Assembly (NCBI RefSeq): GCF_005543295.1 | Contig: NZ_SRSG01000009.1 | Location: forward strand, 62,001 to 126,000 | Reading direction: 5' to 3' | Length of the DNA: 64,000 nt | Source of the DNA: Halalkalirubrum salinum | GTDB taxonomy: Archaea; Halobacteriota; Halobacteria; Halobacteriales; Haloferacaceae | Shown here: positions 5,436-7,258 of the stretch, piece after piece | How positions within the stretch are numbered: the first letter of the stretch is position 1 | Layout of the letters: each line of letters begins with the position of its first letter | The notes under the pieces: generated by a model | What the model was told of the DNA's origin: nothing | Databases searched by the model: none | The model's input: the letters and a program-made list of their open reading frames with translations, nothing else | Made by a program: the position numbers and the translations under genes

Positions 5436-6395
5436 TTACCCGAACCGATCGAGCCCTGCCTGTCGTTTCACTACCCCATCCGGGTCGCGGACCCACGGCG
5501 ATCGATCGTCTCTGAGCGCCGCGAGGTCGACTGCTGGCTGATCGGCCGGCTCGTGGCGGGGACAGTCGGTCCCACAGTCAGTGGCGGGATCGACGATGCG
5601 ATCGTACGCCGAACAGTAGGGCAATCCAGCCTCGGTCGCCTCGGCGTGTTCGCAGGCCGGCATGTCGTACGTTCGCCAGCCCTTCCCATAGGCCCGTTCG
5701 GCGATCCGGAGCCGCTTCCGGCGCTTAGCGTCGGGTGTCACCGTCTCGATGTCTGTCGAAAGTGGGTTGTACGCGATCGGTTCGACGCCCGACTCGTCGA
5801 CTGGGAGTGGTTCTGGCTCACGGATTACCGTTAATTCACGGCCGTCGAGGTCAAACCGCCAGACGCCCACCTCGGGCGGGAGGCGGTTCAGGTGGGCGCG
5901 GGTAACGTAGCTTTCGGTTGCGAGGATCACCTCTTCGAAGAGTGCAAGCGAGACATCGAGGCGCAACTGGCGTTCGAGATCGCCCGGCCGACCCAGATCC
6001 GGCTTGTTTTCGATCGCGACGAGGCCGTCGAACCAGCGCTCAGGGTACCGGGTTGCCTGACGGACGTACCGGCGGCCGCCGCGGCGCTCGGACGCAAAAA
6101 AGCCAATGTCGATCGCCCGATCGGTCACACTCCGGGCGCGATCGGGGTGGCAGTCAAACGCGCTTCCCGGGCGGACCGCCGCCCCAGTACCGACGTCGCT
6201 TTCGATCGCTGCGAGCGGGATTGCCGCAGAAGTAATCGCTGTTCGGCGATCGAACGCGGGGCCCGGTTCGAGGAGGCAAACGTCGACGATCCGGCTGCCG
6301 GGCTCGGCGACCGCGCCGCCGAGTTGGCGGGCGATGACGGCGTCAGTTTGCGCTTCGAGGTGGGTGCACAACGCGAGCTCGAAGCCGAACTCCAT
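5436..6395 (-). CDS. DUF5787-type haloarchaeal protein of unknown function
   Basis: The predicted protein has 319 residues, starting at MEFGFELALCTHLEA. The open frame extends 24 codons further upstream, but this start fits the family pattern as I recall it. A conserved core includes a RIVDVCLLEPG stretch near residue 55 and an AIENKPDLGR stretch near 140. The Asp followed by a Glu-x-Lys resembles a PD-(D/E)XK nuclease core. A Cys-rich C-terminal part (CEHAEA, PYCSAY, DCGTDCPRH) may bind zinc. It converges with the PhnP-like gene. The nuclease idea is inference only. Confidence 0.65.
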   Translation of the reverse strand: MEFGFELALCTHLEAQTDAVIARQLGGAVAEPGSRIVDVCLLEPGPAFDRRTAITSAAIPLAAIESDVGTGAAVRPGSAFDCHPDRARSVTDRAIDIGFFASERRGGRRYVRQATRYPERWFDGLVAIENKPDLGRPGDLERQLRLDVSLALFEEVILATESYVTRAHLNRLPPEVGVWRFDLDGRELTVIREPEPLPVDESGVEPIAYNPLSTDIETVTPDAKRRKRLRIAERAYGKGWRTYDMPACEHAEATEAGLPYCSAYDRIVDPATDCGTDCPRHEPADQPAVDLAALRDDRSPWVRDPDGVVKRQAGLDRFG

Positions 6396-6470: not shown

Positions 6471-6860
6471 TCAGTCGTCGTCGCCGATGATACCCTCCGC
6501 GACGGCCGTGTCCTCGACACTCGGATCGTCCGCAGACGCCCGAAGGACGAACCGCTTGCGGAGCAGGTCAGCCATGTAAATCACCGTTCCGACAATGATC
6601 AGCGTGTCGCCGGGCAGCCGTGCCCAAAACAGCGTCTAGACGATCGGCTGCTCGTAGAACGCGAGGCTCCGTGCGGCGGCGTAGCTTTCTGTGAACGCGA
6701 CGTCCAACTGGAGGAATCCAACCGGCAACACGGAGACGAACACCATGAGCGCGAGGCCAACGTTCCAGCACCAGAATACCGCCCGCAGCCACGAGCCGTC
6801 CCAGTGCTTGGGATCGATCGACAGGTCGAAACCGGTATCCGACGAGGAAGCCTACGAGCG
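6471..6860 (-). pseudogene. norB: Relic of the C-terminus of a norB-type nitric oxide reductase
   Basis: On the minus strand one frame reads from about 6860 to the stop at 6471-6473. It gives GFDLSIDPKHWDGSWLRAVF, then WNVGLALMVFVSVLPVGFLQ, an in-frame TAG at 6636-6638, then TLFWARLPGDTLIIVGTVIY and a short acidic tail. This matches my memory of the last two membrane helices of haloarchaeal quinol-dependent NO reductase. The rest of the roughly 750-residue protein is absent, and an intact small gene begins at 6863. The TAG sits where a Gln codon (CAG) would be expected. The truncation and the stop together mark a dead remnant. No other denitrification genes are nearby. Confidence 0.75.
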
Positions 6861-6862
6861 GT

Positions 6863-7258
6863 ATGCACCGGTGGACGCGGTATACCCTCTGGGCGATCGG
6901 GATCATCGTCGTCGGCCTGCTGGCGCTGGGTGCGCTGCCCGGGCTGACGGGTTCGGGCCCGACGTACCACCTGACCGTCGAGACCACGACAGACGATGGC
7001 GGGGAAGCGACGAACGTAACCGATGTCTCCGAGCGTCGCTACCCGTATCTCGTGAGCGCGCTCGAAGCCGAAGACGGTCAATCAGACGGCTACCAGCGCG
7101 GCCTCGGCGGCCTGAAAGACGCGTTCACGCACTCGCCGTTCGACGAGTTCGACTCGCTAACCCAACAGACCCCCGACGCGGCTCGCGACGACGGCGATCG
7201 GGTGCTCGTCGAGCACGACGGACAGTATTATCTCGTTTCGATTACGGAGGGCACGTAA
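6863..7258 (+). CDS. Small membrane-anchored haloarchaeal protein, unknown function
   Basis: This 131-residue protein has one N-terminal membrane segment (about residues 8-28) and a hydrophilic, probably extracytoplasmic domain. That domain contains a YPYLVSALEA stretch and ends EHDGQYYLVSITEGT. I recognise no named domain. Its TAA stop overlaps the ATG of the Nudix gene by one base, so the two form an operon. Its start lies directly against the norB relic on the other strand, suggesting the gene was placed or retained where norB was lost. Confidence 0.7.
   Translation: MHRWTRYTLWAIGIIVVGLLALGALPGLTGSGPTYHLTVETTTDDGGEATNVTDVSERRYPYLVSALEAEDGQSDGYQRGLGGLKDAFTHSPFDEFDSLTQQTPDAARDDGDRVLVEHDGQYYLVSITEGT

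Follow-up and report, generated by a model that had tools for sequence, protein, structure and literature searches.

A norB remnant at a deletion junction in the haloarchaeon Halalkalirubrum salinum

Introduction

How did the end of a nitric oxide reductase gene come to lie, broken by a stop codon, between intact genes of a haloarchaeal genome, and what does it record about NO reduction in that lineage? The locus lies in a window of 64,000 nucleotides from Halalkalirubrum salinum, the whole stretch of DNA analyzed here, in which the minus strand of positions 6471-6860 translates into a hydrophobic NorB-like tail with one internal TAG. Haloarchaea are often partial denitrifiers, and gain as well as loss of genes could account for this state. 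In a survey of 122 haloarchaeal genomes, 58.2% were described as partial denitrifiers, with NirK-Nor as the commonest core, and nar and nos were proposed to have been acquired later through transfer (PMC8400030).

Results

Identity and extent of the norB relic

We searched the translation of this region against whole genomes and solved structures. The closest match was NorB of the one congener compared, "halophilic archaeon SHRA6" (G001), with 92% amino acid identity over its residues 645-763 (E 1.9e-71), and the frame matched in the whole-genome search was open over 784 aa. The same search gave identities of 74-83% for the NorBs of six other haloarchaea and of 40-60% for a more distant set of genomes. 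Among the solved qNor structures, the relic alone retrieved 3ayf at an E value of 8e-16, by sequence only. These matches exclude a chance resemblance to NorB, and the predicted minus-strand NorB remnant with an internal TAG was thus confirmed. A Pfam search with the relic alone returned no family, as expected at such a short length. The relic and its stop codons are as follows.

6471..6824, minus strand: 3' relic of norB (qNor), residues 647-763 plus the original stop, defined by matches to SHRA6 NorB and solved qNor
6471-6473, minus strand: TGA, the relic's own terminal stop and the original norB stop codon
6636..6638, minus strand: in-frame TAG in the relic, CAG (Gln) in SHRA6

The relic comprises 117 codons, approximately 15% of NorB, and 646 of the 763 residues (85%) are gone. 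The original prediction was therefore right about a major loss, although its figure of about 80% was too low. Its description of the tail as the last two helices is plausible, since hydrophobicity showed one clear stretch and a second, weaker one. The TAG is codon 63 of the relic, and its first base is C in SHRA6 and in all six outgroups. Shortened to this extent, with one TAG and with neither a native start codon, an upstream region nor metal ligands, the relic cannot be an enzyme.

The intact gene in SHRA6 and the deletion junction

In SHRA6, an intact norB (L021:8191-10482, minus strand, 763 aa) was found at the same place, between the DUF5787 gene and the genes for a 131-aa protein and a Nudix hydrolase, an outcome in favour of the original prediction, which had proposed this comparison. 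The window and the SHRA6 sequence were colinear over ~13.6 kb with 93-94% DNA identity, and blastn showed a single gap. The left block ended at window position 6824 (SHRA6 8544), the right block opened at 6825 (SHRA6 10612), and to the right of the junction an identity of 96% resumed immediately. The junction and its surroundings in the window are listed below.

5436..6395, minus strand: intact DUF5787 gene, 319 aa, left neighbour (PF19100, 318 bits; 96% identical in SHRA6)
6824..6825, no strand: deletion junction, where 2067 bp of SHRA6 (L021 8545-10611) are missing, from blastn blocks and base-level comparison
6825..6862, plus strand: 38 bp left of the intergenic DNA that precedes the 131-aa gene, aligned to the SHRA6 right arm
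6863..7258, plus strand: intact 131-aa gene, right neighbour (96% identical in SHRA6), with an N-terminal hydrophobic segment
7258..7893, plus strand: gene for a 211-aa Nudix hydrolase, following the 131-aa gene (96% identical in SHRA6; PF00293 in the SHRA6 copy)

The 131-aa protein matched no Pfam or NCBIfam family, and across many haloarchaea its gene keeps its place next to that for the Nudix hydrolase.

Within the lost 2067 bp lie the start codon and the codons for NorB residues 1-646, along with ~130 bp of intergenic DNA. A deletion junction had been placed at about 6860; the deletion itself was borne out, but the coordinate was ~36 bases off. The related claim that the plus-strand gene begins two or three bases beyond the break did not hold, as its ATG at 6863 lies 38 bases past the junction and these are all that is left of the former upstream region.

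At the breakpoint, the two arms overlapped by 1 nt, and the word TCGATCG occurred within 4 nt in both arms. SHRA6 differs by 3 nt in the right arm, and the ancestral bases there are therefore uncertain. TCGATCG is very frequent, with 139 copies in the 64-kb window. Because the word is so common, it does not decide the route of recombination. A long direct repeat was also considered as the cause of the deletion and was rejected: the blastn blocks overlapped by 18 bp, and base-level comparison reduced this to the single nucleotide. The junction is consistent with a single deletion, probably via illegitimate or microhomology recombination.

Loss of the catalytic parts

The SHRA6 protein contains a cytochrome c-like domain (PF22085) and a COX1 domain, which identifies it as a qNor, and its C-terminal 592 residues matched the Geobacillus qNOR structure 3ayf at E 9e-147. 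The motifs HID, HMWVE, SHHY and GHAH, which we take from knowledge of NOR structures to contain the ligands of haem b, haem b3 and FeB, lie at SHRA6 residues 326 to ~630. All of them precede residue 647, where the relic begins, and thus none of the metal ligands is left. In sequence, the relic resembles the last 117 residues of haloarchaeal qNor/NorB (NorZ) and of 3AYF, but it differs from these proteins in having 15% of the length and one TAG, and in lacking the upstream region, the start and the metal ligands.

A full-length NorB query found only the relic in this genome (62 contigs, 99.8% complete). Likewise, the N-terminal qNor domain PF22085 was not found anywhere in it and was found in SHRA6. 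With no other norB or qNor domain in the assembly, NO reduction by qNor would be lost, in agreement, as far as qNor is concerned, with the loss of NO reduction proposed originally for this lineage.

History of the site

Halonotius and other genera have an empty site. The DUF5787 and 131-aa genes stand next to each other in divergent orientation, ~80-130 bp apart, in four species of Halonotius (L032-L035) and in genomes G012, G013, G014, G021 and G023. G013 and G014 do possess norB, located elsewhere and without these neighbours. The trees of NorB and of the flank were discordant: SHRA6 NorB paired with that of G013 (support 100/99), whereas in the DUF5787 tree G013 paired with G014 (100/100) and the present genus grouped with G008 and Halonotius. 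Furthermore, NorB was 91% identical between SHRA6 and G013 over 500 residues, compared with only 58% for DUF5787 between this genus and G013. The empty sites together with the discordant trees indicate that norB arrived horizontally, an event that the original prediction had not included. On the best reading of the locus, norB was acquired horizontally at this site on the stem lineage of the genus and later deleted in the lineage of the window, an order of events that rests on one congener and more distant outgroups.

At the same DUF5787/131-aa site, G008, from a neighbouring genus, carries a different insertion of 2.3 kb (L100 4593-6940) without norB. Its genes encode a flavoprotein that by eye resembles geranylgeranyl reductase and a lipoprotein-like product. 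This intergenic site thus seems to be a recurrent target for new genes.

Decay and timing

Compared with SHRA6 and six outgroups, the 117 codons accumulated 14 changes on the window branch, of which nine are synonymous and five nonsynonymous, including the TAG. The five (R to H, A to V, Q to TAG, V to M and M to T) hit bases common to all seven other sequences. On the SHRA6 branch, the same codons showed two nonsynonymous and four silent changes, and one change was unassignable. Under an all-neutral model for the 14 changes, nine silent ones are unlikely (binomial p = 0.002). The synonymous excess (5N:9S) suggests that most of the divergence of the relic predates the loss and that, compared with the species split, the deletion is a recent event, on counts too small for a date or a rate test. 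The intact gene in SHRA6 and the TAG and conserved-site changes in the relic agree with the decay after deletion that had been proposed.

The rest of the denitrification pathway

We also searched for other genes of the pathway and found that nirK is absent while nosZ remains, a pattern beyond the scope of the original prediction. SHRA6 has two nirK copies; one protein query, a chimera of both, matched the two copies there and nothing in the present genome, which is 99.8% complete, in agreement with a separate nirK search. The first SHRA6 copy forms a segment with nosL where the nos cluster ends (contig C1, L117 13617-15483, 1.87 kb), and the corresponding interval here measures ~72 bp (contig C5, L116 13628-13700). 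Where SHRA6 carries its second copy, a TnpB-type (IS200/IS605-like) element and an unassigned gene lie in the present genome (contig C32, L121 1577-3580). In two further genomes, G013 and G054, nosL and nosZ are not neighbours, and loss of nirK here and gain in SHRA6 are therefore indistinguishable. A copy of nosL is retained elsewhere in the present genome.

The nosZ gene here is intact, with a TIGR04244 score of 722 bits against a cut-off of 625. TIGR04246, tried as a NosZ model, scored below its cut-off, and TIGR04244 is the right model. The gene is 98% identical to that of SHRA6 with a pN/pS of 0.066, indicating constraint. For NarG, a TIGR01580 search gave no convincing match in this genome or in SHRA6. 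Taken at face value, this gene content makes the organism look like a nos-only N2O reducer, with N2O reduction only as the predicted phenotype.

Discussion

What the locus offers is no new type of system but an unusually well documented case of ordinary gene decay, in a family and a pathway that were both known already. In the sequence of events that we propose, the ancestor of the genus would have received norB between the DUF5787 gene and the gene for the small membrane-anchored protein. In the present species, one deletion of ~2.07 kb would then have taken out every metal-ligand motif, together with the cytochrome c-like domain, the start codon and the upstream region. The 117 codons left over would be non-functional and their decay would have begun, as seen in the TAG that replaced Gln and in four further changes at positions that relatives conserve. 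We regard it as highly probable that a functional, horizontally acquired qNor gene suffered this deletion and left a non-functional, decaying remnant.

Other explanations account less well for these observations. The genome is a draft of 62 contigs and TCGATCG lies near both breakpoints, so an intact norB might have been misassembled by collapse of 2 kb between short repeats. This is very improbable, however, as the relic has a nonsense mutation of its own and four changes at conserved positions, neither any part of the missing 2 kb of norB nor the qNor N-terminal domain occurs anywhere in a nearly complete genome, and a word present 139 times in the window is nothing special. A role retained by the relic, such as encoding a short membrane peptide or giving an antisense RNA to neighbouring genes, could be seen in its mostly synonymous substitutions and preserved hydrophobic stretch. 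Constraint before the deletion explains the synonymous excess, though, and the five nonsynonymous changes strike bases shared by seven other sequences; as a TAG interrupts the frame, the promoter and native start are missing and every ligand and catalytic residue is gone, we give such a role very little credence. The least credible reading is that norB was never complete in this lineage and that a partial gene was transferred into the site. The empty sites of relatives do mark norB as a newcomer, but the complete gene stands at this position in SHRA6, with the same flanking DNA to its left and right, and a full insertion common to both species with a later deletion here is the simpler account.

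Given the deletion of norB and the absence of nirK, the organism is probably unable to make or reduce NO by NirK and qNor, and it may still reduce external N2O via NosZ. Non-denitrifying N2O reducers, which carry nosZ without nir or nor, are known in bacteria. The present genome is like them in that nosZ is retained and nirK and nor were not found. Unlike them, it has a TAT-type NosZ (TIGR04244), a haloarchaeal host and an ancestor with norB. In its account of partial denitrification in haloarchaea, the survey cited above describes a mosaic of Nar, NirK, Nor and Nos among relatives, with some transfer suspected (PMC8400030). The present locus differs in showing a physical trace of loss and in documenting gain as well as loss for nor, and a Nos-only set does not appear among the combinations that the survey text names (PMC8400030). 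A descendant of a NirK-qNor-Nos denitrifier might have shed nirK and norB under selection as a specialist consumer of the N2O of its neighbours, with the relic as the physical record; we offer this tentatively and consider it somewhat doubtful.

The locus thus presents a gain of norB followed by its loss at a single site, with the trace still visible in a genome that retains nosZ. Together with SHRA6, this organism forms a species pair that provides a concrete setting for measuring the effect on NO and N2O turnover.
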